Of a stretch of DNA of 58,177 nt, positions 8,297 through 47,144 are shown piece by piece. The notes under the pieces are model-generated. The model made no database searches. It saw only the letters and a program-made list of their open reading frames with translations, and was not told where the DNA came from. The position numbers and the translations under genes were made by a program. The stretch comes from Clostridia bacterium (lineage in GTDB: Bacteria; Bacillota; Clostridia; Oscillospirales; Acutalibacteraceae). The first letter of the stretch is position 1. Every line of letters begins with the position of its first letter. The stretch covers positions 1-58,177 of the forward strand of contig JAFQWE010000004.1 of the NCBI GenBank assembly GCA_017407645.1, written 5' to 3'.

Positions 8297-8535
8297 AACG
8301 ATTAGCTACGAAGTAATTTAGCTCGCAAAAGGCGAATTTACCTGACCGCCAGGTCAATTTAGCTCTGAAAGAATTTAGCTAAATAATTGCTTGCGCAATA
8401 GCGAAATTATGCAAAGCATAGCTAAATAGTTTTTTCAAAACAGCTAAATTGAATTTGCAAAGCAAATTCAGCCAAGGGCAACTTCACTTGCCCGTAAGGG
8501 CAAACTTAGTTGGCGACTTCGTCGCCTGAAAGGTA
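8297..8535. repeat. Multi-hairpin array with AATTTAGCT linkers
   Basis: Directly after the ABC gene stop, about a dozen short hairpins follow each other, joined by AATTTAGCT or its complement AGCTAAATT. Examples: TGACC...GGTCA-like stem around 8340-8365, ATTGC-TTGC-GCAAT, TTATGC-AAA-GCATA, GAATTTGC-AAA-GCAAATTC, TTGCCC-GTAA-GGGCAA and GGCGAC-TTC-GTCGCC. Loops are 3-4 bases. No coding frame spans it. It resembles the array at 19367-19515. Confidence 0.85.
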
Positions 8536-19366: not shown

Positions 19367-19515
19367 TAAAGCTAAATTCGCCTAAGGCGAGCTAAATTGA
19401 CCTGACGGTCAGCTAAATTCCTTACGGAGCTAATTTGGGCGTTGCCCAGCTAAAGCGAATTTAATTTAGCTATACAAAGTATAATTTAGTTGTTGCGATA
19501 GCAACTATTTAGCTA
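19367..19515. repeat. Multi-hairpin array with AGCTAAATT linkers
   Basis: Begins within a few bases of the msmX stop. Units: TTCGCC-TAA-GGCGA, TGACC-TGAC-GGTCA, TCC-TTAC-GGA, TGGGC-GTT-GCCCA, TATAC-AAA-GTATA and GTTGC-GATA-GCAAC, each flanked by AGCTAAATT or ATTTAGCT. It has the same linker as 8297-8535 but different stems. Confidence 0.85.
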
Positions 19516-21612: not shown

Positions 21613-23793
21613 ATGAAAAAACTACTGTCCGTTGCACTTTGTTTAGTGCTTATATTCTCCGCCCTGCCTGTCTTTGCCATAACGGCAAGCGCGGCAACAA
21701 GCGGATATTATACCTACACCGTAACCGACGGCAAGGCTACCATTACCGATTGTAGCACAAGCATTAGCGGTAATGTTACTATCCCGTCAACATTAGGTGG
21801 CTACCCCGTAACAAGTATTGGAAACTCTGCTTTCTTTAATTGCGACTCTCTCACAAGCGTTACCATCCCAGACGGCGTAACAAGTATTGGTTACCATGCT
21901 TTCTATAATTGCACCTCCCTCACCAGCATCACCATCCCCGACAGCGTAACAAGTATTGGTGAGCGTGCTTTCTCTAATTGTGACTCCCTCACAAGCATCA
22001 CCATCGGCGACAGCGTAACATCTATTGGTAGTTCTGCTTTCTCCGGTTGTACCGCACTTGAAAGCATCGCCATCCCCGACAGCGTTGCATCTATTGGTAA
22101 TTCTGCTTTCTTTGGTTGCGACTCCCTCACAAATATCGTTATCCCCGACAGCGTTAAAACTATTGGTAGTTCAGCTTTCTATAATTGCACCTCCCTCACC
22201 AGCATCACCATCCCCGACAGCGTAACAAGTATTGGAAACTCTGCTTTCTTTAATTGCGACTCTCTCACAAGCGTTACCATCCCAGACGGCGTAACAAGTA
22301 TTGGTGACTCTGCTTTCTATGATTGCACCGCCCTCACCAGTATCACTATCCCCGACAGCGTAACATCTATTGGTGACTACGCTTTCTCGTATTGCACCTC
22401 CCTCACCAGCATCACCATCCCCGACAGCATAACAAGTATTGGTGACTCTGCTTTCTCTAGTTGCAAATCCCTCACAAGCATCACCATCCCCGACAGTGTT
22501 ACAACTATTGGTGACGGTGCTTTTAATGGTTGCACCTCCCTCACAAGCATCACTATCCCCGACAGCGTTAAAACTATTGGTGAGCGTGCTTTCTATGATT
22601 GTATCTCCCTCACCAGCATCACCATCCCCGACAGCGTAACCTCTATTGGTGACGATGCTTTCTCTGGTTGCACCTCCCTCAAAAATGTATATTACAGAGG
22701 TACAAAGGACGATAAAAGTAAAATCAGCATTGGCAGTTATAACACCAACCTAACCAATGCAACCTGGTATTATAACAGCTGTATCGGTTCGGCTAACCAT
22801 ACATATGACAATGTTTGTGACCCTGATTGTAACGAGTGTGGCTACACTCGCCAAGCGCCCCACCTTTATTACCACGATTGTGACTCCGATTGTAATGTGT
22901 GCGGTGCAATACGCAGTGTGCAGGGCCACGTTTACACCGATGAGGCTGACCCCGATTGTAACGAGTGCGGTTTTATCCGCGATGAGTCAGCCTTCATCTT
23001 CGGCACCTGCGGTGATAATATTCAGTGGCGAATTAACACTGTATCAAAAATTCTGACTCTTTCAGGCTCAGGTGCTACCTACAACTATGTAAACGTAGGA
23101 AATACCAATCCCTTCACACAGCATCGTTTTGACATTCAGTCAATCGTTATCGGCGATGGCATCACCCACCTTGGCAACCGTCTGTTTAAAGGTCTTAACC
23201 ACACCACTTCTGTTACATTCGGCAAAGATGTTAAGACTATGGGCTACGAAGTCTTTTTCGGTTGCACCAAGCTTGCCGATGTTGAACTGAACGAGGGCTT
23301 GACTGAGTTAGGCTCACTTACCTTCTACAACTGCACTAAACTTGTTCAGATTGATATTCCGGCATCCTTGTCAACCATCAACCACAGAGCATTCAAGCAA
23401 ACAGGTCTTACCTCAATCAACATCCCCGACACCGTAACCTATATGGGCTACGAAGTATTTATGAACTGCTACGATTTGGCAGAGGTAGGCTTTACCGAGG
23501 GTGTAGGCTTCCTAAACGCAAGAATGTTTGAGAATTGCACAAAACTGACTGAATTCTACTTCAGTGACAATATGTGCCGTATTCGTTCAAGAGCATTTTA
23601 CGGTTGCACTGCACTCGAGAGCATCACCTTTGAAGATGCAAACAGAATGTGGGCATCCTCAGACGGACTAGAGTCAAGAATTCACTCTACCGCCTTTGAG
23701 GGCTGCAATTCATCCCTGCAAATGATTTCCGAAGATGGCACCCACGTAAAAGATTATGCTTATCGTCACAGTTTCACCTTTGTGGCAAAATAA
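21613..23793 (+). CDS. BspA-like leucine-rich-repeat surface protein
   Basis: 726 residues. A signal peptide (about 1-28, ending TASAA) is followed by roughly 14 LRR_5 repeats of 23 residues with consensus TSIGxxAFxxCxSLTSITIPDSV (about 60-360), a Cys-rich segment with three DxDCNxCGxxR units (about 400-460), and a second, more diverged LRR block to the C-terminus. Exported, probably surface-associated or secreted; BspA-type proteins bind host or matrix proteins. No sortase motif or S-layer domain is seen. An 85-bp stretch is identical at 21807-21891 and 22221-22305, showing recent repeat shuffling. The gene lies on an island bounded by 20-bp direct repeats. Confidence 0.92.
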   Translation: MKKLLSVALCLVLIFSALPVFAITASAATSGYYTYTVTDGKATITDCSTSISGNVTIPSTLGGYPVTSIGNSAFFNCDSLTSVTIPDGVTSIGYHAFYNCTSLTSITIPDSVTSIGERAFSNCDSLTSITIGDSVTSIGSSAFSGCTALESIAIPDSVASIGNSAFFGCDSLTNIVIPDSVKTIGSSAFYNCTSLTSITIPDSVTSIGNSAFFNCDSLTSVTIPDGVTSIGDSAFYDCTALTSITIPDSVTSIGDYAFSYCTSLTSITIPDSITSIGDSAFSSCKSLTSITIPDSVTTIGDGAFNGCTSLTSITIPDSVKTIGERAFYDCISLTSITIPDSVTSIGDDAFSGCTSLKNVYYRGTKDDKSKISIGSYNTNLTNATWYYNSCIGSANHTYDNVCDPDCNECGYTRQAPHLYYHDCDSDCNVCGAIRSVQGHVYTDEADPDCNECGFIRDESAFIFGTCGDNIQWRINTVSKILTLSGSGATYNYVNVGNTNPFTQHRFDIQSIVIGDGITHLGNRLFKGLNHTTSVTFGKDVKTMGYEVFFGCTKLADVELNEGLTELGSLTFYNCTKLVQIDIPASLSTINHRAFKQTGLTSINIPDTVTYMGYEVFMNCYDLAEVGFTEGVGFLNARMFENCTKLTEFYFSDNMCRIRSRAFYGCTALESITFEDANRMWASSDGLESRIHSTAFEGCNSSLQMISEDGTHVKDYAYRHSFTFVAK

Positions 23794-34254: not shown

Positions 34255-35634
34255 ATGAAAATTTTCAACACATTAACCCGTCAAAAAGAGGAATTTGTGC
34301 CTGTAAAAGAGGGCAAAGCAGGTATTTACGCCTGCGGTCCTACCGTTTACAACTTTATCCACATCGGCAACGCCCGTCCGCTGTGCGTTTTCGACGTGCT
34401 TCGCCGCTATCTTGAGTGGCGCGGTATGGAGGTTAACTTCGTTCAGAACTTCACCGACATTGACGACAAGCTTATTAAAAAGGCTAATGAAGAGGGCATC
34501 ACTGTTCCTCAGGTTGCCGAGCGTTATATTGAAGAGTTTTGGACCGACGTTAAGGGTATGAACATCCGTCCTGCTACCACACACCCCCGTGCAACCGAAA
34601 ATATTAACGAGATTATCGGTCTTATCAGCACCCTTATTGAAAAGGGCTATGCCTATGCATCAGGTGGCGACGTATATTTCCGCACCCTTAAGTTTGATGA
34701 GTATGGCAAGCTGTCCCATCAGCCTCTTGAGGATTTGGAGGCAGGCGCCCGTATTGACGTTACCGAGGTTAAGGAGCATCCTATGGACTTTGCTCTGTGG
34801 AAGGGTGTTAAGCCCGGTGAGCCCTTCTGGCCGTCACCTTGGGGCAACGGAAGACCCGGTTGGCATATTGAGTGCTCTGCAATGAGCCAAAAATACATTG
34901 GTGACACCCTTGACATTCACTGCGGTGGTCAGGATTTGATTTTCCCCCACCACGAAAACGAGATTGCTCAGTCGGAGTGCGCTTGCGGTAAGCCCTTTGC
35001 AAACTACTGGATGCACAACGGCTATATCAACGTTGACAACCGCAAAATGAGTAAGTCCTTGGGCAACTTCTTCACTGTGCGTGAGGTGGCTGAAAAGTAC
35101 GGATATGAGCCTATCAGATATCTGATGATTTCTTCTCACTATCGCAGTCCAATCAACTATTCTGTTGATATTCTTGAGCAAAGCCAAAACGCTCTTGACC
35201 GCCTTTACACCTGCCGTGAAAACCTTGTTTTCCGTCTTGAAAGTGCCCAAAGCGGTGAGCAGACTGCCAATTTTGATAAGTTTAAGGAAGAATTTATCAC
35301 CGCTATGGAGGATGACCTTAACACCGCCGATGCAATCGCCGCCATCTTCAATCTTGCCAAAGAGATTAACATTATGCTTGGCGGCACCCCCTCAAAAGAG
35401 GATTGCACCGCTGCTCTTAATATGTTTGACGAGCTTTGCGGCGTTCTTGGCCTTGTTTATAATATTGACAAGGCAGATAACCTTGATGCCGAGGTTGAGG
35501 AATTGATTGCGCAACGTACTGCCGCCCGTAAGGAGCGCGATTTTGCCAAGGCAGACCAAATCCGCGACCAACTTAAAGAGATGGGTATCGTCCTTGAAGA
35601 TACCCCCCAAGGCGTTAAGTGGAGCAGAGTATAA
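34255..35634 (+). CDS. cysS: Cysteinyl-tRNA synthetase
   Basis: 459 residues. Class I synthetase with the HIGH-type HIGN motif in YNFIHIGNARP, KMSKS in RKMSKSLGNFF, and Cys/His zinc ligands including YACGPTV and CSAMS...HCGGQD. It charges tRNA(Cys), directly lowering the signal read by the T-box upstream. A structured hairpin array begins 18 bases after the stop. Confidence 0.97.
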   Translation: MKIFNTLTRQKEEFVPVKEGKAGIYACGPTVYNFIHIGNARPLCVFDVLRRYLEWRGMEVNFVQNFTDIDDKLIKKANEEGITVPQVAERYIEEFWTDVKGMNIRPATTHPRATENINEIIGLISTLIEKGYAYASGGDVYFRTLKFDEYGKLSHQPLEDLEAGARIDVTEVKEHPMDFALWKGVKPGEPFWPSPWGNGRPGWHIECSAMSQKYIGDTLDIHCGGQDLIFPHHENEIAQSECACGKPFANYWMHNGYINVDNRKMSKSLGNFFTVREVAEKYGYEPIRYLMISSHYRSPINYSVDILEQSQNALDRLYTCRENLVFRLESAQSGEQTANFDKFKEEFITAMEDDLNTADAIAAIFNLAKEINIMLGGTPSKEDCTAALNMFDELCGVLGLVYNIDKADNLDAEVEELIAQRTAARKERDFAKADQIRDQLKEMGIVLEDTPQGVKWSRV

Positions 35635-35652
35635 AACATAAATCCCGACGAA

Positions 35653-35856
35653 GGCGTTGTACCCGTAAGGATACAACGCCAGTTTTATTCGCCTATCGGC
35701 GAGTTCTATTGCTACGCAGTGATATTTGGACTAAAGTCCAAGTGATATTGCCTGCGGCAGTTTATGGGCGAATAAAATAACACTGAAACCGCAAGGTTTC
35801 AATAACACTATTGTCGCAAGGCAATAATATCACTCCGACAAAGTCGGAATATAACT
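35653..35856 (+). repeat. Structured hairpin array E1 (AATAACACT/AATATCACT linkers)
   Basis: A first hairpin (35653-35680, GGCGTTGTA stem), then an outer helix TTTTATTCGCC (35683-35693) with GGCGAATAAAA (35767-35777) that encloses three to four small hairpins, then three linked hairpins each followed by AATAACACT or AATATCACT. It aligns end to end with E2 at 45315-45519. Most stems differ in sequence between copies but remain paired. Confidence 0.85.
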
Positions 35857-35884
35857 TGAAAGACTATCAGTTTTTATGTATAAT
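35856..35884 (+). promoter_or_regulatory. Promoter of the four-helix-bundle gene
   Basis: TTGAAA (35856-35861), a 17-bp spacer and TATAAT (35879-35884), immediately at the end of array E1. Confidence 0.75.
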
Positions 35885-35903
35885 AGATTTAGAGGTGATA
35901 ACT

Positions 35904-36254
35904 ATGGCTGATAGTATTTTAAGAGATAAAGCAAAAGAGTTTGCAAAGAAAATCGTTTTTCTTTGTCGTGATATGAAATCAACCCACAAAGAATCCGTTT
36001 TAATAAATCAGTTGCTCCGCTCAGCGACCTCTATCGGATCCAACCTGCACGAAGCACAATATGCTCAAGGAACAAAAGATTTTATTTCAAAACTCGAAAT
36101 AGCGCAAAAAGAATGTTATGAAACAGAATATTGGTTAGAACTTCTTTTTGAGACAAATTGTATGAATGAAGAAAATTATAAAGCATTGCAAAATGATTGT
36201 GGTGCTATTCGCAGAATGTTAATCTCGTCACTTAAAACTATAAAGTCTAAATGA
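35904..36254 (+). CDS. Four-helix-bundle protein (S23 / 23S rRNA IVS family)
   Basis: 116 residues. KAKEFAKKIVFLCRD, LINQLLRSATSIGSNLHEA and a helix with ECYETEYWLELL match the family first seen in intervening sequences of 23S rRNA genes and related to Avd of diversity-generating retroelements. No 23S gene or retroelement is nearby. ATG at 35904 is chosen because AGAGGTGAT lies 5 bases upstream; an upstream in-frame ATG would be within array E1. AT-rich relative to neighbours. Cellular role unknown. Confidence 0.85.
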   Translation: MADSILRDKAKEFAKKIVFLCRDMKSTHKESVLINQLLRSATSIGSNLHEAQYAQGTKDFISKLEIAQKECYETEYWLELLFETNCMNEENYKALQNDCGAIRRMLISSLKTIKSK

Positions 36255-36267
36255 AGAGGTACATATT

Positions 36268-36645
36268 ATGAGCAAAAGAAAAAGATTAGAATATTTGATA
36301 ATCACTTCTTGTGTATTATTATCAGGATTTGTCATTTATGGTTTTGTAGGAAGTATTCAGCCGCTAATTAACGATAGTAAAGTGGCTTCCTTTTTTGCTT
36401 TTGGTGCTTTGGGTGGCTTTGGATTTAGCCTTATCTTATCTACCATAATTTTAAGTTCAAGATTTTTTCAAAAAAGAAGTTTAACCTTTAAAATAGTTGC
36501 GGCTGTTCTTTGGCCTATTACTTTTGCTTGTTGTTTTTATGTTGGTGTTTTTATGTATATACCCTATGGAATATACAATGTTATAATGTTGATTAAAAAA
36601 GAGCCTCAAGTTGTAGAAAGTTCCATTGACAATTTAAATGAATAA
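36268..36645 (+). CDS. Small membrane protein of unknown function
   Basis: 125 residues with hydrophobic segments at about 10-30, 41-65 and 75-108 (the last probably two helices), a basic N-terminus and an acidic tail. AAGAGGT precedes the ATG. It lies 13 bases after the four-helix-bundle gene and is AT-rich like it, so the two are probably one acquired unit. I do not recognise the family. Confidence 0.65.
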   Translation: MSKRKRLEYLIITSCVLLSGFVIYGFVGSIQPLINDSKVASFFAFGALGGFGFSLILSTIILSSRFFQKRSLTFKIVAAVLWPITFACCFYVGVFMYIPYGIYNVIMLIKKEPQVVESSIDNLNE

Positions 36646-36753
36646 AGAATACACAAATTCTTTATTTGAGTTTGGTTAAGGGTTTTAGGTTCTCCTAAAG
36701 TGTGGAAAATTTGATATACATTTTCCCTGCTTGTTACGGTATAAGACAAAATT

Positions 36754-36787
36754 AAAAACTGTGTAGAAATTTTCTACACAGTTTTTT
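36754..36787 (+). terminator. Intrinsic terminator
   Basis: AAAACTGTGTAGAAA pairs with TTTCTACACAGTTTT and is followed by TT. It separates the plus-strand unit from the convergent sorE-like gene. Confidence 0.9.
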
Positions 36788-36856
36788 ACTGTCCTTTAGA
36801 GTACGGCTCAAAAGTCGGGATTTTTTAATGAATAATGGAAAAGGTTTGCTGTCTTT

Positions 36857-38095
36857 TTAAAAATTATTCAGCAAGTATTTTTCTGCTTCGGCAGACCACA
36901 AGCCGTTGTTTTGCTTAACCAATCGGTCAAGCTGGGCAAAGCGTTTGTCCTCATTTCCAAGTGCCTCAAAATCTGCAATAGCGGTAAGAGGCAGGTCGAT
37001 GTGGGTGTAAATCAGTTTTTTACCGCCCTCAATTTCAGGCAGGCGCAAGGTTGTATCAACGGCGGCGTCAATACCGCCAATATGGGTAATCATAACGGCA
37101 GGGTCGATTTTACCCTCGCCGATAAGACGCACAATATCAAGCATATCTTCGGTTGTGCTTCCGCTTGTGCCTGCAATATGATGCTGAGCGTAGTGAACGT
37201 TGTAAAAATTAAGGTTGGCGCTGAACTTTTTATCCAAGGGGCCTGCAAAGAAATTAAGGCAACCGTCAAAGCCCAAAATTTCGTCTGCCAACTCAACCAC
37301 CGAGGGAACGGGAGCATAGACAAAAACGTCGTCAAAACCGCCGTCAGACAAGGCAAGCAAGCCCTCTTTATCGGTGCAATCGGTGAAGATAAGTTTAATT
37401 CCGTCTTTTGCGGCTTTTTCGGGCGGAAAAATCTGCTTTGCCCTTTCAAGACGTTCCTTGCTCAAATCGGTTACTACCAACAAGGAGGGCTTTACGTCAC
37501 CGTGGAGAGCGATGTCAATGGCAACCAGTCCCATAGGCCCGCACCCTGCAAGGATGGCAGTCTTTCCGCTTGGTTTAACGTTGGTATAGGGCATAAGGTC
37601 ACCGTCAAGGTGCAGGTTTGCCTTGTACCCCCTGATAACGCAAGAGGCAGGCTCAATCAAAGAGCCCTTAAAAAAAGAGTCACTGTCAAGCTTAATCAGA
37701 TAGCCGTTTTCTACAATGTGGTCGTAAACTATGGAATAGGTTGACACGCCGCCGATTTCACCAAAGGTGTAACCAACCGTTTGCACACCGCCGGGAAGAT
37801 AGGCTAAAACGGGAGGCATAACCACCTTGTCACCAACCTGATATTTGTTCTGCCATTTTGGTGTAACTTCAACGATTTCGGCACAAAATTCGTGACCTAC
37901 TATAATCGGATTTTCGGCAACGTTGTCGGGTACGCGCAAATGCTTTGCGCCCTGTTTTGCCGTTTTGTAGGTGGACATACAAACGCTGTCGGATATAACC
38001 TTAATAAGTATTTCGCCATTTTTAAGTTGTGGCAACTCAAACTCCTCAAGCCTTAAATCGTTTTCGCCGTATAAACGGACTGCTTTTGTTTTCAT
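36857..38095 (-). CDS. Zinc-type dehydrogenase, SorE-like (L-sorbose-1-phosphate reductase family)
   Basis: 412 residues, longer than ordinary medium-chain alcohol dehydrogenases. The N-terminus MKTKAVRLYGENDLRLEEF, SVCMSTYK in place of the usual zinc motif, IIVGHEFCAEI, an EPASCVI segment and a Rossmann ILAGCGPMGLVAID fit the SorE group, which reduces sorbose 1-phosphate to glucitol 6-phosphate; assignment is from memory of the family. It lies 15 bases after the aldolase in one minus-strand operon, consistent with ketose- or alditol-phosphate catabolism. Confidence 0.75.
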   Translation of the reverse strand: MKTKAVRLYGENDLRLEEFELPQLKNGEILIKVISDSVCMSTYKTAKQGAKHLRVPDNVAENPIIVGHEFCAEIVEVTPKWQNKYQVGDKVVMPPVLAYLPGGVQTVGYTFGEIGGVSTYSIVYDHIVENGYLIKLDSDSFFKGSLIEPASCVIRGYKANLHLDGDLMPYTNVKPSGKTAILAGCGPMGLVAIDIALHGDVKPSLLVVTDLSKERLERAKQIFPPEKAAKDGIKLIFTDCTDKEGLLALSDGGFDDVFVYAPVPSVVELADEILGFDGCLNFFAGPLDKKFSANLNFYNVHYAQHHIAGTSGSTTEDMLDIVRLIGEGKIDPAVMITHIGGIDAAVDTTLRLPEIEGGKKLIYTHIDLPLTAIADFEALGNEDKRFAQLDRLVKQNNGLWSAEAEKYLLNNF

Positions 38096-38110
38096 ATCCT
38101 CACCGCCCTA

Positions 38111-38980
38111 TCAGATGCGACCTGCACTGCCGAATTTTCTTAATTTATCCTTTACAACCTCTTTCATCATAGCGCGAGCATCCTCCCACACAATGAAGGG
38201 CCAGGTTGACGGGTTTTCAACTCTGTTGAGCGTGTCTTTAAGACCTTTGTTCATAGCGCCAACGACGTCGGAATATATGTTGATTTTTGTTATGCCGTGT
38301 AAGATAGCGTTTTGCATTTGGTCATCGGGAGTACCGCTACCGCCGTGAAGAACTAAAGGACGGTCGCAGACAGCGGTAATTTCGTCAAGTCGGTCAATAC
38401 GAAGCTCGGGAGTTTTCTTATATACGCCGTGAGAGGTGCCTATTGCAACTGCAAGGGCGTCAACGTCGGTGATTTCAACAAATTTTGCTACCTCTTCGGG
38501 CAGGGTAAGACTTTCGCCGGGGTCGGTATCGGCACCCGTTTCACTAATACTGCCAACACTGGCGTTGCCAACGTGACCAAGCTCCGCCTCAACCGTTACA
38601 CCGTGAGCGTGAGCATACTTTGTAACTTGAGCAGTGTTTTTTGCATTGTTGTCAAAATCAAGCACCGAGCCGTCATACATAACAGAACTGAAGCCTGCAT
38701 CAATTGCCTGCTTAATCAGTTCAAAATCGGTAGCGTGGTCTAAATGAAAGCAAACGGGGACGCTGAAAAAGCGTGATGCTTCCTTTACCATAGAGGTGAT
38801 TAGAGGCAATCCTTTGCCCTCAAGGTCAACGCCAAGTCCCATAAGCAGCGCGGGTGATTTTTCTTCCTCGCAAGCCTCCAGAACAGCCTTCATCATTTCG
38901 TAATTGCTTACGTCAAATGCAGGGATAGCATAATGATTTTTTCTTGCATCGGCAAGCATTTCTTTCATTGTTACTAACAT
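38111..38980 (-). CDS. Class II fructose-bisphosphate/tagatose-type aldolase
   Basis: 289 residues. VCFHLDHATDFELI carries the zinc histidine and catalytic Asp, VEAELGHVG follows, and LVLHGGSGTPDDQMQNAI is the C-terminal phosphate-binding motif. The metal aldolase cleaves a ketose 1-phosphate or bisphosphate. ATG at 38980 has AAGGAGTG upstream; a longer frame begins in the promoter. First gene of the operon, followed by the SorE-like dehydrogenase. The exact sugar cannot be told from sequence alone. Confidence 0.88.
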   Translation of the reverse strand: MLVTMKEMLADARKNHYAIPAFDVSNYEMMKAVLEACEEEKSPALLMGLGVDLEGKGLPLITSMVKEASRFFSVPVCFHLDHATDFELIKQAIDAGFSSVMYDGSVLDFDNNAKNTAQVTKYAHAHGVTVEAELGHVGNASVGSISETGADTDPGESLTLPEEVAKFVEITDVDALAVAIGTSHGVYKKTPELRIDRLDEITAVCDRPLVLHGGSGTPDDQMQNAILHGITKINIYSDVVGAMNKGLKDTLNRVENPSTWPFIVWEDARAMMKEVVKDKLRKFGSAGRI

Positions 38981-39008
38981 ATTATCACTCCTTATAGTTG
39001 GTAATGGC

Positions 39009-39037
39009 ATTATATCAAACTCATTAACATTTGTCAA
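39009..39037 (-). promoter_or_regulatory. Promoter of the aldolase-sorE operon
   Basis: On the minus strand TTGACA (39032-39037), a 17-bp spacer and TATAAT (39009-39014), both perfect. The operator palindrome covers its -35 and spacer. Confidence 0.92.
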
Positions 39038-39055
39038 TAACAAATGTTAATGAGT
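39019..39055. promoter_or_regulatory. Operator palindrome between the aldolase and SorC genes
   Basis: ACTCATTAACATTTG (39019-39033) and its exact complement CAAATGTTAATGAGT (39041-39055) with a 7-base centre. It covers the minus-strand promoter and abuts the plus-strand -35 at 39057. Inference: site for the adjacent SorC regulator. Confidence 0.88.
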
Positions 39056-39056
39056 A

Positions 39057-39085
39057 TTGACTTTGACGGGGGATGGTGCTAAAAT
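39057..39085 (+). promoter_or_regulatory. Promoter of the SorC-PHP operon
   Basis: TTGACT (39057-39062), a 17-bp spacer and TAAAAT (39080-39085). Confidence 0.8.
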
Positions 39086-39100
39086 AACTTAGGTGATTTT

Positions 39101-40027
39101 ATGAAGTGTAATAATGAAAAGGTTTTGATGAGTGAGGTTGCAGTGCTTTATTATGAAAAAAAGCAAACCCAACAGGAAATTGCAGACCTTATGAATTTGT
39201 CGCGGCAGACGGTATCAAAATTGCTTAACGATGCTATAAGAGAAAATATTGTAGAAATAAAAATTCACAATCCCAAAAAGGATTGTGAAGAATTGCAGCG
39301 TCAGCTTACAAAAAGGTTTGGCATAAATAATTGCGTTGTAACGGGAGTCAGTTCTAAAAACGAGGCGTTGCGCCAAACAATGACCGTTAAAGCGGCAGCG
39401 GAATATATCACCGATATAATAAAAAAGGGCAACAAAAAAATCGGGCTCTCCTGGGGCAGAACGGTGAAAGATTTAGTAGCCGCTATCCCTGAAACCGCCA
39501 CAAACGGCAATATGGTTTTTCCCCTTTTTGGTGCCACCGATAATGAAAATTTGTATTTTTCATCAAACGAGTTGGCGCGCAGTATGGCAGATAAAATCGG
39601 TGCTGACGTGAAATATGCTTGGTTCCCATACTTGACCGACAGCAAAGAGGATTGCTTGATGCTTAAAAACCTGTCTTATTACAAAAAAATGCAAAATTTA
39701 TGGCAGACTGCCGATTTGGCTATAGTAGGCATAGGTAATACCGAAATTCTTGATGTTTTTGGCAAAAACTTTGGGTACAGCAAATCTCATTATCAGGCAA
39801 TCGGTGACGTGGCAACCCACTTTTTTAATGAAAAAGGCGAGCTTGTAAATCTGTATGAAAACACCCTTTGTGCATCTGCTGAAAATATCAAAACGGCAGG
39901 GCAGACCATTGCAGTTGCATGCGGAGATAACAAAGCAATAGCTATTCACGGTGCCCTGCGCACAAAGCTTTTTGACACCATTATAACCGATGAACATACT
40001 GCAAGAAAAGTTTTAGAAATCAAATGA
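39101..40027 (+). CDS. SorC-family sugar-responsive transcriptional regulator
   Basis: 308 residues. The N-terminal helix-turn-helix (about 8-50) has KKQTQQEIADLMNLSRQTV; the remainder is the SorC sugar-phosphate-binding domain with IGLSWGRTV and LAIVGIGNT. These regulators bind sugar phosphates and act on divergent catabolic operons. Its position opposite aldolase and SorE-like genes, with a perfect palindrome between, makes those its likely targets. Its TGA overlaps an ATG near the start of the PHP gene. Confidence 0.9.
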   Translation: MKCNNEKVLMSEVAVLYYEKKQTQQEIADLMNLSRQTVSKLLNDAIRENIVEIKIHNPKKDCEELQRQLTKRFGINNCVVTGVSSKNEALRQTMTVKAAAEYITDIIKKGNKKIGLSWGRTVKDLVAAIPETATNGNMVFPLFGATDNENLYFSSNELARSMADKIGADVKYAWFPYLTDSKEDCLMLKNLSYYKKMQNLWQTADLAIVGIGNTEILDVFGKNFGYSKSHYQAIGDVATHFFNEKGELVNLYENTLCASAENIKTAGQTIAVACGDNKAIAIHGALRTKLFDTIITDEHTARKVLEIK

Positions 40028-40038
40028 CGGAGGGCACT

Positions 40039-41049
40039 ATGAAATATTTAATTTCACCTGAGGCAAAGCAATACAAGGCAAATTTGCATTGCCACAGCGT
40101 TATTTCCGATGGAAAAAAGACACCCCAAGAGCTTAAAGAGATGTATAAATCAAAGGGTTACTCTATCCTGTCCATAACCGACCACGAGGTTCCTAAAAGC
40201 CACTCCTATCTTAACGACCAAGATTTTATTACCATTACAGGCTACGAGGCATATATCCGCGTGCGCCCCGTTTACGACGTTTATGAAAGGGAACTGCACA
40301 TAAATTTGTTTGCCAGAGATCCCGAAAACCTTTCTTACGTTTGTTACAATCCTAATTTTTGCAAATATATAGATAAATCCCAGCATGATAAACTGCAAAA
40401 GGTGGGTTCACAAAGACCCCGCAAGCTAACGGTACGCTACGTTAACAAATTCATAAAAACCGCTAAAAAGCACGGTTACATTGTTGCTTATAATCACCCG
40501 TGGTGGTCTATGGAAAAGGAAGAGGTTATACTTAAGTATGACGGCTTCTTCAGTATGGAAATGTGCAACTACGGCAGCTACAAGTCCAGTCTGCTTGAGT
40601 ATAACGGTGCTTTTTATGATAAGCTGCTTTTGTCGGGCAAGCGCCTGTTCTGTCATAGCGCAGACGATAATCACAACGTGTATGAGGAGGGGCATCCTGA
40701 GTTTGACTGCTTCGGCGGATTTACAATGATTATGCCCACCGAGTTTACCTATGACGCTATTTTTAAGGCGATGGAAACGGGCGAGATGTATTCCTCAATG
40801 GGTCCCACCTTTAAAGAGGTGTCGGTTAACGGCAACTCAATACATATTGAATGCTCAGACGTTAAGCGGATTATGGTTTTCACAGGCAGCAAAACTCCGT
40901 TAATAAAGGTTGCCAACGAGGGTGAAACAATAAACTCTGCCGATTTTGAGGTTGATAATCGCGCAAGGTATGTGCGAGTATCCGTTGCCGACGAAAAGAG
41001 CCGCTTTGCAGATACCCGCGCATTTTTCAGGGACGAACTGGAATTTTGA
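40039..41049 (+). CDS. PHP-domain metal-dependent phosphoesterase-like protein
   Basis: About 336 residues. Metal ligands appear in order: NLHCHSVISDGKKTP, LSITDHEVP, AYNHPWWS and FCHSADDNHNV, the PHP pattern shared with histidinol phosphatase and PolX/PolC PHP domains. ATG at 40039 has GGAGGG 5 bases upstream and is preferred to ATG 40024. A C-terminal beta domain (about 260-336) is unassigned. Co-transcribed with the SorC gene, so it may act on a related phosphorylated sugar. Confidence 0.8.
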   Translation: MKYLISPEAKQYKANLHCHSVISDGKKTPQELKEMYKSKGYSILSITDHEVPKSHSYLNDQDFITITGYEAYIRVRPVYDVYERELHINLFARDPENLSYVCYNPNFCKYIDKSQHDKLQKVGSQRPRKLTVRYVNKFIKTAKKHGYIVAYNHPWWSMEKEEVILKYDGFFSMEMCNYGSYKSSLLEYNGAFYDKLLLSGKRLFCHSADDNHNVYEEGHPEFDCFGGFTMIMPTEFTYDAIFKAMETGEMYSSMGPTFKEVSVNGNSIHIECSDVKRIMVFTGSKTPLIKVANEGETINSADFEVDNRARYVRVSVADEKSRFADTRAFFRDELEF

Positions 41050-41093
41050 TTGAATGAAGGATATGTTATGGTTGTGCTACAATAGAGACAAAA

Positions 41094-41350
41094 GCAGAAA
41101 ATTAAACTTGTGGAAATGACTTCCACAAGTTGCACTCGTAGCCTCCCTCTGACGAGGGAGGTGGCAAAACTTTAGTTTTGACGGAGGGAGAGAATATGAA
41201 AGAATATAATAGAACCAATATCCCTCTTGCAAAAGCTTTAAGAATTTTAGCGGTGTATGTGAATATATAGATTTAGCTGTTAAAAAGTCTCTCCCTCAGT
41301 CAGCTTCGCTGACAGCTCCCTCGTCAGAGGGAGCCAAGGGCTAATTTGTC
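41094..41350 (+). mobile_element. Internally deleted DUF559 element (non-autonomous copy)
   Basis: About 257 bp aligning with both ends of the full element at 57667-58177 but lacking about 253 bp of the interior. It keeps the AACTTGTGGAA hairpin, the left CTCCCTC repeat (41141-41192), the gene start (ATG 41196, 18 codons matching the full gene then a shifted frame ending at TAG) and the right repeat (41289-41335). The junction TTAAGAA-TTTTAGCGG joins positions equivalent to about 57817 and 58070. No functional gene remains in 41050-41424. Confidence 0.85.
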
Positions 41351-41377
41351 ACCAATTTAACACAAGCATATAATACA

Positions 41378-41414
41378 AAAAGGATGTGCAGTTTTTGTAC
41401 TGTACATCCTTTTT
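41378..41414. terminator. Terminator at the 3' end of the Ldh2 gene
   Basis: AAAAGGATGT-G-CAG pairs with CTG-T-ACATCCTTTT around TTTTTGTA. It can end minus-strand transcription from 42543 and any plus-strand read-through. Confidence 0.8.
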
Positions 41415-41424
41415 ACGTCTAAGC

Positions 41425-42543
41425 TTATTTATAGGAGCTTTGGGTTGCGTTTGAGAAGTCAACGTCACCAAGATATTCAACGCTGTCCATACCCAAGTAG
41501 TCGCACAAATCCTTCATTTCGGCAACGGTGTTAATGTTAACCTCAATGCCGTTCTTCATACGGTCGGCAGATGCAAAGATTTCCTTTTCACCGTGGGTGT
41601 AAATACGCTCCTGACCCTCTGCCTTGGGAGCGTCGCGAAGTTCCTGAAGGAATAAGGAGAAGCGCTCCTTAAGAGCATCGGCATCGCCGAAGACCTTGGG
41701 GTCGATAACCATAAAGCCGTGGCAGGTACCACCCTTACCGCCTATATGAGTGTGGTTAGAGGTAAGACCGCCTGAGAAAATAGAGCAGAAAATTTCGCAC
41801 AGCATACCGTAGCCGTAGCCCTTATGACCGCCAAGAGGCTCGGTATCGCCGCCAAGAGGCACGATGCCGCCGCCGTTTTTGCCAACGATATTTTTAAGCA
41901 CGCGGGCAGCATCACTGCAGGGCTTGCCGTTTTCGTCAAGAGCCCAACCCTCAGGCAGAGGCTTTGAAAGCTTGTTGTAAATTTCAAGCTTACCGCGGGT
42001 AACAACGGTGGTTGATGAATCAAAGAAGAAGGGATATGGTTCGGCAGGCATTGAAATTGCAATGGGGTTAGAGCCAAGCATAGCCTTGCGAGCATATGTA
42101 GGAACCATTATTGCCTCGGAATTGGTCATGGCAAAACCTACAAGACCCTGATCGCAAGCCATTTTTGCATAGTAGCCTGCAATACCGAAGTGGTTAGAAT
42201 TTTTAACGGTAACAACAGCCATACCGGTCTTTTTAGCCTTTTCAATGGCAATATTCATAGCCTCGATAGAGATAAGCTGACCCATACCGTCGTGGCCGTC
42301 GATAACTGCGGAAACAGGAGTTTCAAAAACGATTTCAGGCTTTGCATCAACGTGAATGAGCCCCTTTTCAATACCCTTATGGTAGCGCACAAGTCTTTGC
42401 ATACCGTGAGATTCAATTCCGTAAACGTCTGACAACAGCAAAACGTCGGTAATTTTCTTTGCCTCGTCTTCGGTAAAGCCGAATTTTGTAAATGCGTCGC
42501 AGCAGAATTTGTTAAGCTGCTCAAAAGAATATTTAATATACAT
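41425..42543 (-). CDS. Malate/L-lactate/ureidoglycolate dehydrogenase family (Ldh2)
   Basis: 372 residues. DVYGIESHGMQRLVRY, VVTVKNSNHFGIAGYYA, AMTNSEAIMVPTYARKAMLGSNP and GGHKGYGYGMLCEIFCS are the Ldh_2 family blocks. These NAD(P)-dependent oxidoreductases act on malate, lactate, 2,3-diketogulonate, ureidoglycolate or similar 2-hydroxy acids; the substrate here is open. AAAGGAGC precedes the ATG. It has its own promoter and terminator and no obvious partner. Confidence 0.88.
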   Translation of the reverse strand: MYIKYSFEQLNKFCCDAFTKFGFTEDEAKKITDVLLLSDVYGIESHGMQRLVRYHKGIEKGLIHVDAKPEIVFETPVSAVIDGHDGMGQLISIEAMNIAIEKAKKTGMAVVTVKNSNHFGIAGYYAKMACDQGLVGFAMTNSEAIMVPTYARKAMLGSNPIAISMPAEPYPFFFDSSTTVVTRGKLEIYNKLSKPLPEGWALDENGKPCSDAARVLKNIVGKNGGGIVPLGGDTEPLGGHKGYGYGMLCEIFCSIFSGGLTSNHTHIGGKGGTCHGFMVIDPKVFGDADALKERFSLFLQELRDAPKAEGQERIYTHGEKEIFASADRMKNGIEVNINTVAEMKDLCDYLGMDSVEYLGDVDFSNATQSSYK

Positions 42544-42569
42544 ATTTTCGCTCCTTTTTATTCAACCTA

Positions 42570-42606
42570 CTATATTAAAAATATAGTAAATTTATGCTTT
42601 TGTCAA
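42570..42606 (-). promoter_or_regulatory. Promoter of the Ldh2 gene with small palindrome
   Basis: On the minus strand TTGACA (42601-42606), a 17-bp spacer and TATTTT (42578-42583). CTATATT-TTT-AATATAG (42570-42586) is palindromic over the -10 and could be an operator. Confidence 0.6.
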
Positions 42607-42649
42607 GCAAATAGCAAATAAACCTGAGCAGATTTATCGAAAAATCAAT

Positions 42650-42692
42650 AAAAATGCCCAAGCGTGTGGATTTACACTTGGGCAAAATTTTA
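42650..42692 (-). terminator. Terminator after the DegV gene
   Basis: TGCCCAAGTGT pairs with ACACGCTTGGGCA (one mismatch region at the loop side) and is followed on the minus strand by TTTTTATTG. Confidence 0.85.
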
Positions 42693-42696
42693 TTTT

Positions 42697-43584
42697 TTAA
42701 TTTTCTCTTTTCGGTCCCCAGAAAAATACGGCAACGGTACCCGGTCCCGTGTGGCATCCGATGGTGGAGCCGATGTTATAAATCTGCACGCCATCCTTGA
42801 TGTTGGGACATGCCTCTTCAATCATATCGGCAAGAGCGCGAGCATCCTCGAAACACTCCGAATGACTGATGTAGCACTTGTCGGCATAGTCTGCACCGCC
42901 GTTAATATTTTCTGCAACACGGTTGGCAAGCTCCATAATGGCGCGCTTTTTAGTGCGCACCTTTGCTCTTGGAATAAGTCTGCCCAAATTATCCATATTC
43001 AAAACGGGGCAGATGTTAAGCATACCGCCAAAAAGTCCTGCTGCCTTTGAAATTCTGCCGCCGCGCACGTAGAAGGTAAGGTCAGATGAATAAAACCAGT
43101 GATGCATATTAAGGCGGTTTTCGGTGAGCCACTCGTTGAGAGCGTCAATATCCATTCCTTCGTCACGCAGGTCGGCAGCCTTGTCAACGATAAGTCCGTA
43201 GCCTGCAGATGCGCCAAGGCTATCCACAACGTAAAGCTTGCGGTCGGGGAAACGCTCCTTGGCAATCAAAGCGGCGCTGGAAGCAGAGTTGTAGTCACCT
43301 GAAATTCCTGATGAAATGGTAATGTGAATCAGATCGTTGCCCTGCTCTAATATAGAGGTAAAATAGTCAAGGTATTCACCCACACCAAGCTGGCTTGTTT
43401 TTGAATCGGCGCCGTCAATCATTCTTTTATAAAGCTCTGCATAGGGCAGGCTTGCGCCAAAGTCATCGGTAAAAAACTCTTCGCCCAACTGATATTTGAA
43501 GCACATATATCTAACGTTGCGCTTATCTAACTGCTCTTTATTAAGGTCAACGGGTGACGTGCAGCTTAAAACGTAATTACTCAT
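42697..43584 (-). CDS. DegV family fatty-acid-binding protein
   Basis: 295 residues. The N-terminal strand-loop, KTSQLGVGEYLDYF with the conserved TSQ-type motif, TISSGISGDYNSA and VDSLGASAGYGLIV are DegV hallmarks. DegV (FakB-like) proteins bind a fatty acid and present it to FakA kinase for phospholipid synthesis. No fakA is near. AGGAGG precedes the ATG. Confidence 0.92.
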   Translation of the reverse strand: MSNYVLSCTSPVDLNKEQLDKRNVRYMCFKYQLGEEFFTDDFGASLPYAELYKRMIDGADSKTSQLGVGEYLDYFTSILEQGNDLIHITISSGISGDYNSASSAALIAKERFPDRKLYVVDSLGASAGYGLIVDKAADLRDEGMDIDALNEWLTENRLNMHHWFYSSDLTFYVRGGRISKAAGLFGGMLNICPVLNMDNLGRLIPRAKVRTKKRAIMELANRVAENINGGADYADKCYISHSECFEDARALADMIEEACPNIKDGVQIYNIGSTIGCHTGPGTVAVFFWGPKREN

Positions 43585-43685
43585 GGTTTGCCTCCTGATT
43601 GGAAAAAAAGTATAGTTTGATTTTATAGCACTGCATAAAATAAATCAATCTACACTCACCGTAAAAATATCTACAAACAAATAAT

Positions 43686-43722
43686 CGGTCGGTAGAGCGG
43701 TTTTTATACGCTCTACCGACCG
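43686..43722 (-). terminator. Hairpin after the XRE-membrane gene
   Basis: CGGTCGGTAGAGCG pairs perfectly with CGCTCTACCGACCG. The minus-strand tail is ATTATTTG, only partly T-rich. Its GGTAGAG word is also found in the gene's own promoter region. Confidence 0.6.
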
Positions 43723-43733
43723 TAGAATTTAGA

Positions 43734-44324
43734 TTATGCGCCTTTTCTTTTTTTAACATGGAAGCTGAGCGCCACAATAAGCTCGGCAGGAATGGCAAGC
43801 AACAGCAACTGCCAAGGATTTTGACCTGCCTGTAAGAATCCGCAGTAAACGGCACCGATTATGCTGATTACCACGGCAGACACTATGTAAAAATTACCTT
43901 TGCCCTTATTCCACACGCTGTTTAAAATCAGTGCAGTCAGCAAAACAAGAGGTAAAGAGTAAATGAAAATCTGCCAATATATGCTTTCAAGCAACCAAAA
44001 TATTATGAAAAGCAGTGTTGCTACCGAAAAAATACTGATTGCCACAATAGAAATGACGGCATTTGGTCTGAAATGCAGCTCTTTGGTTTTGACGGGGGCT
44101 TGCTCCCACTCGTCGTGAGAGGTGATAAGGTAATCAACCGTTACGCCAAAAAGATCTGCAATTGTTTTAAGCACCGTTACGTCGGGCAAGGATTCGGCGC
44201 GCTCCCATTTAGAGACGGCTTTGTCGGTATAATTGATTTTTTGCCCCAACTCCATTTGAGTCATATTGGCGGCTGCCCTGAGCTTAAGCAAATTGCTGGC
44301 AACGTTAACTTTAATATCCTCCAT
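43734..44324 (-). CDS. XRE-family regulator with membrane C-terminus
   Basis: 196 residues. HTH_3 domain (about 10-65): MTQMELGQKINYTDKAVSKWERAESLPDV. Three to four transmembrane segments follow (about 88-110, 115-132, 143-160, 165-188). This HTH-plus-membrane plan is common in Bacillota; targets and signals are unknown, with membrane sensing possible. AAGGAGGTGC precedes the ATG. A palindrome lies in the 5' region. Confidence 0.85.
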   Translation of the reverse strand: MEDIKVNVASNLLKLRAAANMTQMELGQKINYTDKAVSKWERAESLPDVTVLKTIADLFGVTVDYLITSHDEWEQAPVKTKELHFRPNAVISIVAISIFSVATLLFIIFWLLESIYWQIFIYSLPLVLLTALILNSVWNKGKGNFYIVSAVVISIIGAVYCGFLQAGQNPWQLLLLAIPAELIVALSFHVKKRKGA

Positions 44325-44353
44325 AAAAGCGCACCTCCTTCGAAAAAATCAAC

Positions 44354-44368
44354 TCTACCAACAGTAGA
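44354..44368. promoter_or_regulatory. Candidate operator of the XRE gene
   Basis: TCTAC-CAACA-GTAGA is a 5-bp-arm palindrome just downstream of the -10. The half-word TCTAC also occurs at 44386-44390 over the -10 itself, consistent with autoregulation. Confidence 0.5.
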
Positions 44369-44383
44369 ATTGGCGTTTTTATT

Positions 44384-44412
44384 ATTCTACCACATAATTT
44401 TGCCTTTGACAA
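44384..44412 (-). promoter_or_regulatory. Promoter of the XRE-membrane gene
   Basis: On the minus strand TTGTCA (44407-44412), a 17-bp spacer and TAGAAT (44384-44389). Confidence 0.75.
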
Positions 44413-44439
44413 CCATATTTTGTCGTTTTGTGCAGGGGA

Positions 44440-45231
44440 TTATATTCCAAGCAGTTTTTTGGCGTTAAGATGGGTGATTTTGTCCATATCTTCTGCTGAA
44501 ATTTGCAAATTGTTAAGCAGGGTTAGTTCCATATCGGCAGTGTGCCAAGGGGTGTCGGTGCCAAAAAGAATTTTATCGGCGCCGTGGGTGTCCAGGATTT
44601 TTTGAGCAAAGAATTTGGGCATTTGTGAAAATCCAAATGAGGTGTCGAAATAGATGTTTTCTCCGCACAGCTGCTCCACCACCTGCTCATAGCAACCAAG
44701 TCCGCCCCAATGCGCCGCTACAACGGGTGTATCAAACCAGTCAAGCGCACGCCTTAAATTCTCGGGCATACAACAGTAGGGGGGAGCGAAGCCGTAATCC
44801 ACACCTGCGTGAAAGACGGTAATAAGCCCAAGTTCAGAAATTTTGCGGTAAATGGGCTTCATCATCTGGTCGTCCACCTTAAAGCCCTGATAATCGGGAT
44901 GGAGTTTAACACCTTTAAGCCCCATTTCTTTGATGCGCTCAAGCTCTTTAAAAACATCCTCACTGCGAGGAAAAACCGAGCCGAAACTGACTAAACAGTC
45001 CTCTTTGTCCAGGGTTGCGGCAAAATCGTTTACACTTTGTTGCTGATGAGCGTTGGTGGCAATATTAAGCACCACCGATATGTCTGCACCGCCCTGTTTC
45101 ATAGCGTTTTTTAATCCCTCTGCCGTGCCGTCGGTGTGGGGAACAAGCCCTCCCGATACAAAGGACAGTTTCTCTATGGCCTTTGAGGCAATATTTTGGG
45201 GAAAACAGTGGGTGTGAAAGTCGATAAGCAT
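44440..45231 (-). CDS. Amidohydrolase family metal-dependent hydrolase
   Basis: 263 residues. A short amidohydrolase-2 barrel: metal ligands in LIDFHTHCFPQ, VKLHPDYQGF, VVAAHWGG and a final FGTDTPWH Asp. Relatives are aminocarboxymuconate-semialdehyde decarboxylase-like hydrolases and decarboxylases. Substrate unknown. GGGAG precedes the ATG. The gene is upstream of, and divergent from, the LytTR gene, with array E2 in the interval. Confidence 0.85.
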   Translation of the reverse strand: MLIDFHTHCFPQNIASKAIEKLSFVSGGLVPHTDGTAEGLKNAMKQGGADISVVLNIATNAHQQQSVNDFAATLDKEDCLVSFGSVFPRSEDVFKELERIKEMGLKGVKLHPDYQGFKVDDQMMKPIYRKISELGLITVFHAGVDYGFAPPYCCMPENLRRALDWFDTPVVAAHWGGLGCYEQVVEQLCGENIYFDTSFGFSQMPKFFAQKILDTHGADKILFGTDTPWHTADMELTLLNNLQISAEDMDKITHLNAKKLLGI

Positions 45232-45314
45232 AAAAATCTCCCTAATTTTGCTTTTGGATAGTATGTGTAAGTTAACGGTTATTATTTTAGCACACTAAAA
45301 AGAAACGGTCAATA

Positions 45315-45519
45315 GGGGTTGTATCCATAAGGACACAACCCCAGTTTTATTCGCCTTTGGCGAGTTATATTGCTTCGCAGTTATATTATGCTTACGCATA
45401 GCGGTATTGTCCTACGGACAGTTTTTTGGGTGAATAAAATATAACTAAAACCGCAGGTTTTAATATCACTTTGCCGATAGGCGAAATAACACTGTGAGAC
45501 CCGTCTCACAATATCACTC
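45315..45519 (+). repeat. Structured hairpin array E2, homologue of E1
   Basis: First hairpin GGGGTTGTA stem (45315-45342), outer helix TTTTATTCGCC (45345-45355) with GGTGAATAAAA (45429-45439, one G-U), then hairpins TTTGCC-GATA-GGCGAA and GTGAGAC-CC-GTCTCAC separated by AATAACACT and AATATCACT. It matches E1 at 35653-35856 in order and linkers. 45232-45314 holds nothing recognisable. Confidence 0.85.
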
Positions 45520-45573
45520 TTTAAAATTATTTTTTTCGAGGCAGGTTAAAAGTCTTAGGTTTTTCTAACAAGT

Positions 45574-45595
45574 GACATTTAGGCACCTAAATGTC
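45574..45595. promoter_or_regulatory. Palindrome upstream of the LytTR gene
   Basis: GACATTTAGG-CA-CCTAAATGTC is a perfect 10-bp-arm inverted repeat about 85 bases upstream of the LytTR promoter. It may be an operator or a small hairpin; its role is unknown. Confidence 0.5.
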
Positions 45596-45679
45596 CTTAA
45601 CTATACGACCCACACTATTTGTTTTTTTACCGCATAAACGCCTCTTTTGACCGAATAATTAAAATGGCTTGAATTTAAA

Positions 45680-46634: not shown

Positions 46635-47144
46635 GTGGATAAAAAATTACCCCAAAGAAAGCATCCGCGTTTAGAAGATTTTGATTATGGTTCTGACGGT
46701 TATTACTTTGTTACAATTTGTACTCAAAAAAGACGATGTTTGTTATCTAACGTCGTAGGGCGGGGGCTTGCTCCCGCCGAAAAAGAGGTTGAATATACCA
46801 AATTAGGTAAAATCGCAGAACAGCAGTTACATCTGTTAGAAAAAAGATATTCGTGCATAAAAATTGATAGGTATGTGATTATGCCTAACCACATACACGC
46901 GGTTTTAGTTATATCAAACAATACGGCGGGAGCAAGCCCCCGCCCTACTTTAACTGATATAATTTGTACGTATAAATCGTTGACTACCAAAGAATGCAGA
47001 AAGATAGGATTTTCAGAACAACTATTCCAATCATCTTTCTATGAGCATATTATCAGGGGACAAGCCGATTACGATGAAATTATAAAATATATTTGCGATA
47101 ATCCGGCTCAATGGTGCCACGATAAATTATATTGTGAACAATAG
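46635..47144 (+). CDS. REP-associated tyrosine transposase (RAYT, Y1/IS200-like)
   Basis: 169 residues. The N-terminal YYFVTICTQKRR, the HUH metal motif in YVIMPNHIHAVLV and the catalytic tyrosine in IIKYICDNPAQW define the family. RAYTs act on GTAG-headed hairpins (REPs). Two such hairpins lie inside this gene, in frame and inverted to each other: 46755-46778, read as GRGLAPA, and 46925-46948, read as AGASPRP. They fall between conserved blocks, so the enzyme may still be active. GTG start. AT-rich, lone gene without IS ends. Confidence 0.88.
   Translation: MDKKLPQRKHPRLEDFDYGSDGYYFVTICTQKRRCLLSNVVGRGLAPAEKEVEYTKLGKIAEQQLHLLEKRYSCIKIDRYVIMPNHIHAVLVISNNTAGASPRPTLTDIICTYKSLTTKECRKIGFSEQLFQSSFYEHIIRGQADYDEIIKYICDNPAQWCHDKLYCEQ
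46755..46948. repeat. Inverted pair of REP hairpins inside the RAYT gene
   Basis: 46755-46778 starts GTAGGGCGGGGGCTTG and pairs with itself; 46925-46948 is essentially its reverse complement, ending CCGCCCTAC. They are 146 bases apart and match intergenic copies at 15527, 15871 and 21393. Confidence 0.85.

Follow-up and report, generated by a model that had tools for sequence, protein, structure and literature searches.

Paired hairpin arrays in a Clostridia bacterium are copies of a mobile element family linked to S23 genes

The window analysed here is the whole 58,177-nucleotide stretch of contig JAFQWE010000004.1 (assembly GCA_017407645.1) from a Clostridia bacterium of the Acutalibacteraceae. 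It holds two arrays of small hairpins, E1 (35653-35856) and E2 (45315-45519), for which there is a strong case that they are two copies of one mobile element family: structured, mobile and linked to genes for the 23S rRNA-intervening-sequence protein S23 (PF05635). E1 stands at the front of a larger unit behind cysS, with S23 and a cargo gene following the array, and E2 is a copy without S23. The features of the two copies are as follows.

35640..35649, + strand: 5' arm AAATCCCGAC of a split Rho-independent terminator behind cysS, pairing over 10 bp with 36814-36823; taken as target DNA because the terminator arms differ between copies
35653..35680, + strand: left-end hairpin of E1, quasi-palindromic, holding the left terminal inverted repeat, whose partner is in the right end; homology to the copy in another genome (G054) begins at 35648
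35681..35856, + strand: hairpin array of E1, with L linkers at 35681, 35702, 35718 and 35741, the centre, and R linkers at 35776, 35801, 35826 and 35848
35683..35693, + strand: 5' arm of the outer helix, partner at 35767-35777
35856..35884, + strand: sigma-70-like promoter match (TTGAAA-17-TATAAT, 11 of 12), immediately following the last linker
35904..36254, + strand: S23 gene, 116 aa (Pfam E 2.9e-28)
36268..36645, + strand: cargo gene coding for 125 aa, without a Pfam match at 0.001
36674..36813, + strand: right end of the element with the right inverted repeat, 84% identical to the G054 copy; identity with the right flank of L003, a copy that lacks S23, is 76% (E 4e-21)
36754-36786, called on the - strand by the scan: terminator-like hairpin within the right end
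36814..36823, + strand: 3' arm GTCGGGATTT of the split cysS terminator, followed by a T-run; pairs with 35640-35649
45315..45342, + strand: left-end hairpin of E2, from alignment with E1 and folding
45343..45519, + strand: hairpin array of E2, from alignment with E1
45535..45597, + strand: right-end piece adjoining E2, with 81.5% identity in a 65-nt match with the right flank of copy L095 (E 1e-12)

The two arrays align with each other from end to end with a mean column identity of 81%, bearing out the original prediction, made from the letters alone, that they are homologous; the exchanged stems and the G-U pair in the outer helix of E2 that it described are also present. Compared with dinucleotide shuffles, the folds have z values of -8.6 (E1) and -6.9 (E2), with 0/200 shuffles equally stable in either case. 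In an alignment of 34 distinct array copies, modelled as an outer helix plus six hairpins, 96.5% of 1128 cells are paired and two-sided changes are found in 23 of the 34 base pairs. Covariation, assessed by pair counts rather than R-scape, reaches a score of 0.573 against 0.141 ± 0.011 after shuffling (0/500 as high), and at most 0.094 when the structure is slid. The variable pair of the outer helix, for example, is A-U in 17 copies, U-A in 10, C-G in 5, G-U in one and unpaired in one. This covariation supports the earlier proposal that selection acts on structure, which the check leaves unrefuted.

Read in the orientation of E1, the left side of the array runs from the end hairpin (35653-35680) through L1, a CGCC hairpin, L2, a GCNNNGC hairpin, L3, a hairpin and L4 to a further hairpin, and the right side from the centre, GGCGAATAAAA, which pairs with L1 plus CGCC, through R1, a hairpin, R2, a hairpin, R3 and a hairpin to R4. 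The linkers are near-constant and 9 nt long, with the R type (AATAYMACT) in the right half being the L type (AGTKRTATT) of the left half in reverse complement. Both kinds are present in 88 of 128 linker clusters, a count that includes overlapping loci, and L precedes R in 87 of these 88. Spacers with at least 4 pairs were counted against a control in which halves were swapped between copies. On the left they number 58/74 after L1 (51% for swapped halves), 15/71 after L2, where stems are short (1%), and 43/55 after L3 (20%), and on the right 58/68 for the last hairpin (10%), 54/60 for the next to last (7%) and 34/46 for the third from the end (24%).

Between left and right linkers, covariation is weak (0.044 against 0.029 shuffled, 0/500 as high, yet 0.040 when slid by two columns), and at the two variable positions 96/262 cells are unpaired, most for L1-R4 (38/60) and fewest for L4-R1 (10/68). 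Base pairing of left with right linkers was set aside on this weak and uneven support, with the innermost pair, L4-R1, as a possible exception. Because the stems covary strongly and the linkers covary with each other only weakly, we conclude that the stems are conserved as structure and the linkers chiefly as sequence.

The view that no named RNA family has this build held in one part and failed in another. In a full-sensitivity Rfam search, Gut-1 (RF01706) matches the left half of E1 (35680-35753, + strand) with 44.8 bits (E 3e-7), short of the family cut-off of 50, and more weakly the right half (35772-35857, - strand) with 31.5 bits. Gut-1 models the left half, over which fold and sequence agree, whereas E1 itself scores below the cut-off and no Rfam family reaches its own cut-off in the window. 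Of 20 related loci chosen for the search, 7 contain matches that reach the Gut-1 cut-off, 8 in all, so that sister copies do match the known family; one of these loci is in the same genome (L004, 56.7 bits), and there is no match at the cut-off in the locus of E2 (L005). Arrays with other linkers (L263, L264 and L256) also reach it. Because Gut-1 matches the left half on the + strand and the right half on the - strand, the array is a head-to-head pair of Gut-1-like halves. The Rfam model covers 77 nt of unknown function, with the inverted right half outside it, and does not include the link to S23, cargo, ends and terminators. Among the open-licence papers listed, none has a title that connects S23 to hairpin arrays or Gut-1, or to heptamers other than those of 23S rRNA.

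That the arrays belong to a mobile element is well supported by the G054 copy, by right ends common to S23-less copies and by split terminators. E1 and the G054 copy are 91% identical over 35648-36252 and 84% again over 36674-36815, with no similarity beyond 35648 and 36815 in the stretches compared; in between, the cargo is replaced in G054 by a different gene of 147 aa. The S23 proteins of the window's genome (G000) and G054 are identical at 92/103 aa and the 270 nt upstream are 93% identical, whereas cysS of the two hosts, which belong to different families, is 61% identical. From this difference in identity, the S23-bearing unit has evidently been transferred between families. In both genomes the flanks are the arms of a split terminator, and these differ between genomes (10-bp and 16-bp). 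Among other copies, one has a right-end piece after S23 and no cargo gene (G052), and S23-less copies have matching right ends (L003, at the identity given above, and L095, E 7e-18). The label of non-coding mobile element that had been suggested therefore suits E2, while E1 is the front part of an element with S23 and cargo genes.

The place of insertion can be seen from the flanks. Matching terminator arms were found in 12/31 copies with hairpin ends against 26/930 mismatched left/right pairings (16/51 against 8/246 in a first version of the test), the test being made on 42 of 80 elements, those with a full end hairpin and flanks. Terminal inverted repeats have a mean score of 18.5 against 10.9 ± 2.5, with 11/17 above the 95th percentile of shuffles, the arms of 5 of these 17 having been picked by eye; in having such repeats, the element resembles miniature inverted-repeat transposable elements and other transposons with terminal inverted repeats. 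A complete element consists of an end hairpin with inverted repeat, the array, a promoter, S23, an exchangeable cargo gene and a right end with the second inverted repeat, and it lies inside the hairpin of a host Rho-independent terminator.

The genome from which the window comes, a 71% complete assembly of 41 contigs and 1.36 Mb, gives 12 array matches by blastn. Of 60 genomes of the order, this one among them, 20 contain a two-linker pattern and 18 contain it at least twice, whereas its reversed control gives 0 or 1 match per genome; these 18 are referred to below as array genomes and the other 42 serve as the comparison set. A three-linker scan of named genomes returned at least 118 stretches, and 97 of the 118 listed have at least two palindromic spacers, a count that includes at least two low-complexity or identical-unit cases (L057, L093). 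Such cases apart, the matches listed are from Clostridia (labelled Oscillospiraceae, Ruminococcus, Clostridiales or Bacillota), mostly metagenome-assembled genomes from herbivore guts. Six odd matches that we opened (L042, L048, L057, L070, L093 and L106) have non-palindromic or repetitive spacers. Most matches on viral contigs were dismissed, as a palindromic spacer was present in 6 of 59 stretches, three of which were judged real. Arrays lie at or near the ends of several contigs (C30, C33, C12 and C41 of G000; C11 and C31 of G011; C9 and C49 of G005), so that assemblies probably break at such copies and the copies are undercounted.

These properties also bear on the idea that the arrays are regulatory RNAs or operators, with S23 regulating through the array upstream of its own gene and through terminator arrays that control read-through. 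The best promoter match ahead of S23 does adjoin the array on its downstream side, and the stems of the array covary as in RNA. However, that match, the best of 8 to the consensus in 35580-36880 (shuffles average 5.1), lies downstream of the array, which is therefore outside its mRNA. Moreover, G-U outnumbers A-C in the stems by 14 to 8, and by 7 to 4 in either half, which is no strong strand preference, and the copies are patchy (18/60 genomes) and transferred between families, unlike a conserved regulon. We regard such a regulatory role as unlikely.

The link to S23 came from reading the flanks of array copies and not from clustering of neighbouring genes. Around 84 named array loci there is no common neighbour: the largest cluster of open reading frames (ORFs; 21 loci) and several smaller ones are frames of the array itself, the remaining clusters are scattered housekeeping-looking genes at 9 loci or fewer, and S23 did not stand out. 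The S23 protein of the window has a single match in the PDB at 0.01, 2rld (E 1.1e-29), and PF05635 has 68 matches in the 60 genomes. An E-type array with 7 or 8 exact linkers lies upstream of 8 of these 68 genes, no two of which share a genome or a genus; its orientation is constant, and its last R linker begins 67-75 nt ahead of the S23 domain match. The human faecal record MT835815.1 has a tRNA, a terminator, an array and S23 in matching order; the record is an unverified one labelled as phage, and since a tRNA and terminator (read by eye) precede the array it is probably bacterial in origin.

Other S23 genes often carry arrays of like build with different linkers, such as TGATGATAT, GATGAAATC, CAATTCATG and GCGATATAT. 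A detector blind to linker sequence, calling at least three L followed by at least three R, is positive for 35 of the 65 S23 genes used, against 1/65 shuffles and 10/358 other genes (400 sampled, 42 of them excluded for carrying E-family linkers), and 2 of those 10 control positives come from genuine arrays of a different family within the window. At the level of genomes, any S23 is present in 16/18 array genomes and 11/42 others (p 9e-6). A same-strand tRNA gene lies within 500 nt upstream of 28/68 S23 genes, compared with 3/400 controls (11/400 on either strand) for which the search covered 430 nt. S23 is under purifying selection, with a median pS of 0.80 and pN of 0.19 in 45 pairs of ten genes.

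Some further observations concern these genes and arrays. In 10/68 cases there is a 4-nt overlap between the stop of S23 and the beginning of the ORF that follows, and the following ORFs are varied. By eye, an apical TTTTGTCTACC-GACAAAA-like motif often recurs in the tRNA-type terminators that precede arrays of different linker families (L012, L020, L044, L050, L239, L263 and L264). The window itself has two arrays of E build with another linker, AGCTAAAT/ATTTAGCT, at 8316-8450 and 19370-19515; the pattern of this linker matches at 31 places in the genome of the window, at 19 in G046 and at 20 in G056, and in G046 an S23 gene is flanked by arrays that carry it.

Linker types follow the clades of S23. 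On a tree of 59 S23 domains (9 of the 68 genes were left out, 4 with a stop in the match and 5 short), ten labels, nine linker types and "none", are distributed in 12 changes, where the minimum is 9 and the shuffled mean 30, and 0/200 label shuffles needed 12 or fewer; this result should be read with 28 of the 59 rows labelled "none", linker labels from patterns chosen after reading the loci, and a tree limited by its small number of columns and numerous weak forks. Taken by themselves, the nine linker types require 8 changes, the fewest possible. Neighbouring clades have similar linkers (AGTTATATT and AGTTATGA; TGAAATC and TGAATTG), and within an array all linkers change together while the intervening stems vary. 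We read this agreement as probable recognition of the linkers by S23.

We consider it fairly probable that E1 and E2 are mobile-element copies seated in terminators, with S23 as a candidate binder of its cognate linkers that acts in trans. An S23 pentamer would bind the cognate linkers, the array would be a loading site for S23, and S23 would act in trans on S23-less copies such as E2. S23 is likely a binder of the linkers and may also be the mover of the element. This reading and its rivals overlap, and the weights we give them need not sum to one.

Several points weigh against it. The agreement of linkers with S23 could be explained by linked inheritance without binding. S23 of the E clade (8) or its AGTTATGA sister clade (3) is present in 11/18 array genomes against 0/42 others (p 9e-8), a comparison that is partly circular as 8 of those 11 genes adjoin arrays, and it is absent from the other 7 of the 18. 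Five of those seven (G004, G005, G046, G051 and G057) are 95-98% complete, which counts against a strict need for a cognate S23. The terminator arms of E2 itself are weak, and the right end found in G054 and G052 was not found in the S23 copy of G059. Split-terminator arms were seen in 0/11 tRNA-linked copies, where an intact tRNA terminator abuts L1. Among 29 relatives, out of 59 matched by cysS, the 150 nt that follow cysS show no recognisable empty site; for the L111 locus, 78 other genomes offer no orthologue, hence no empty site there. No target duplication was seen, the flanks being the arms of one hairpin in which no direct repeat was noticed by eye, and no transposase was seen.

An ordinary non-autonomous transposon, moved by some other transposase with S23 as cargo and the array as a structured passenger, would account for the inverted repeats, the S23-less copies, the variable genes next after S23 and the arrays in near-complete genomes without S23 of the clade; we also know of no catalytic role of S23. 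Yet S23 is kept while the cargo differs (G000 and G054), in G052 the right-end piece follows S23 without any cargo, the nine linker types follow the S23 clades, plasmid S23 genes of other phyla have period-7 repeats of their own (see below), and there is no link to Y1 transposases, which are found in 7/18 array genomes and 19/42 others. On balance we find a transposon of this kind possible but rather doubtful.

The same Y1 counts led us to reject RAYT/Y1 as a partner at the level of genomes, despite an ORF near E2 that resembles one. In REPIN/RAYT systems, a single gene-bearing copy is accompanied by many gene-less inverted palindromic copies, and by analogy here too a gene-bearing copy may be seen beside S23-less ones. 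The element differs in that no Y1/RAYT is linked to it, the three Y1 matches of its own genome being on other contigs, and in that its partner is S23. The RAYT-like ORF in question, 46635-47144, lies 1.1 kb from E2 and has no Pfam match at 0.001.

Movement of the array as RNA by a reverse transcriptase in trans, with S23 in the role that its homologue Avd has in diversity-generating retroelements, has two points in its favour: PF05635 resembles Avd, which is essential to retrohoming (PMC10053308), and the targets are RNA hairpins, as with the 23S rRNA intervening sequences (IVSs; PMC4990558). The reverse transcriptase family PF00078, however, does not track the arrays (3/18 array genomes against 12/42 others), and reverse transcriptase was rejected as a helper. 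Unlike diversity-generating retroelements, neither the window's genome (71% complete) nor G054 (100% complete, and bearing the element) has a PF00078 match. This route seems to us very improbable.

S23 homologues are also found on 25 plasmid records. We tested 19 of these (14 from Cyanobacteriota, 2 from Chloroflexota, and one each from Bacteroidota, Spirochaetota and Bacillota) for periodicity by autocorrelation at lags 4-12. In flanks of 160 nt on each side, the strongest period is 7 in 38/38 cases, compared with 75/537 random control segments of the same loci. Strong tandem heptamers are present in 20/38 flanks (12/19 genes) against 3/90 control gene flanks, and across the gene they are inverted in 11 cases, direct in 5 and tied in 3. 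The cyanobacterial ones are probably the same as the published short tandemly repeated repetitive (STRR) sequences. In Clostridia, S23 genes without a hairpin array have period 7 upstream in 22/31 cases, and those with an E array in 0/8.

STRRs are described as 7-bp tandem repeats of unknown function (PMC2670836); cyanobacterial plasmid S23 genes are likewise flanked by heptamers, but with no hairpins between the repeats. In the Coxiella 23S rRNA IVS, heptamer GACAGAT repeats precede the S23 ORF (PMC4990558). Because heptamers or period 7 are shared by plasmid S23 flanks, array-less clostridial S23 genes and the Coxiella IVS, the hairpin array seems to be one version of a broader bond between S23 and repeats. 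The element resembles such an IVS in having an S23 gene within a unit seated in an RNA hairpin, and short repeats upstream of S23. It differs in its host site: where an IVS lies in helix 25 or 45 of 23S rRNA, E1 lies in the terminator behind cysS, and the element in general in a terminator or in the 3' flank of a tRNA. It differs also in having the hairpin array, the promoter match, cargo and an S23 under purifying selection.

Given period 7 in all 38 flanks of the 19 plasmid genes as against the controls, we put forward tentatively, and with more doubt than confidence, that S23 proteins are bacteria-wide sequence-specific binders of short, mostly 7-nt repeats that drive mobile elements into RNA-hairpin genes (terminators, tRNA 3' flanks and 23S rRNA helices). 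Gut-1, the 23S rRNA IVSs and the cyanobacterial heptamers would then be traces of one system, each S23 lineage being tied to its own repeat.

With respect to gene context, two plasmid S23 genes lie in CRISPR loci, between csx2 and cas1 in Pseudanabaena galeata (L384) and between cas2 and cas1 in Anabaena cylindrica (L385), and others lie in restriction-modification, DISARM or XisH/XisI loci. Elsewhere in the window there are near-identical blocks at 41094-41244 and 57667-57817 (97%) and at 41243-41350 and 58069-58176 (99%), the second pair gap-separated. A tandem array at 21738-22796 has a 69-nt period and 12 overlapping copies reported, and a 42-nt palindromic interspersed repeat, AGGGAGGTGGCAAAACCGTAGGTTTTGACGGAGGGATATAAA, is present at 15917, 21502, 41154 and 57727 with 64-100% identity.

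Three questions meet in these elements: the role of S23, the nature of Gut-1, and the reason why certain bacterial genomes abound in heptamer repeats. With the array, S23 has a concrete and testable candidate target, for which the nine natural linker types are built-in controls. If true, our reading would also bring to light a mobile element that is concealed in terminators and exchanges cargo genes across families of gut bacteria.

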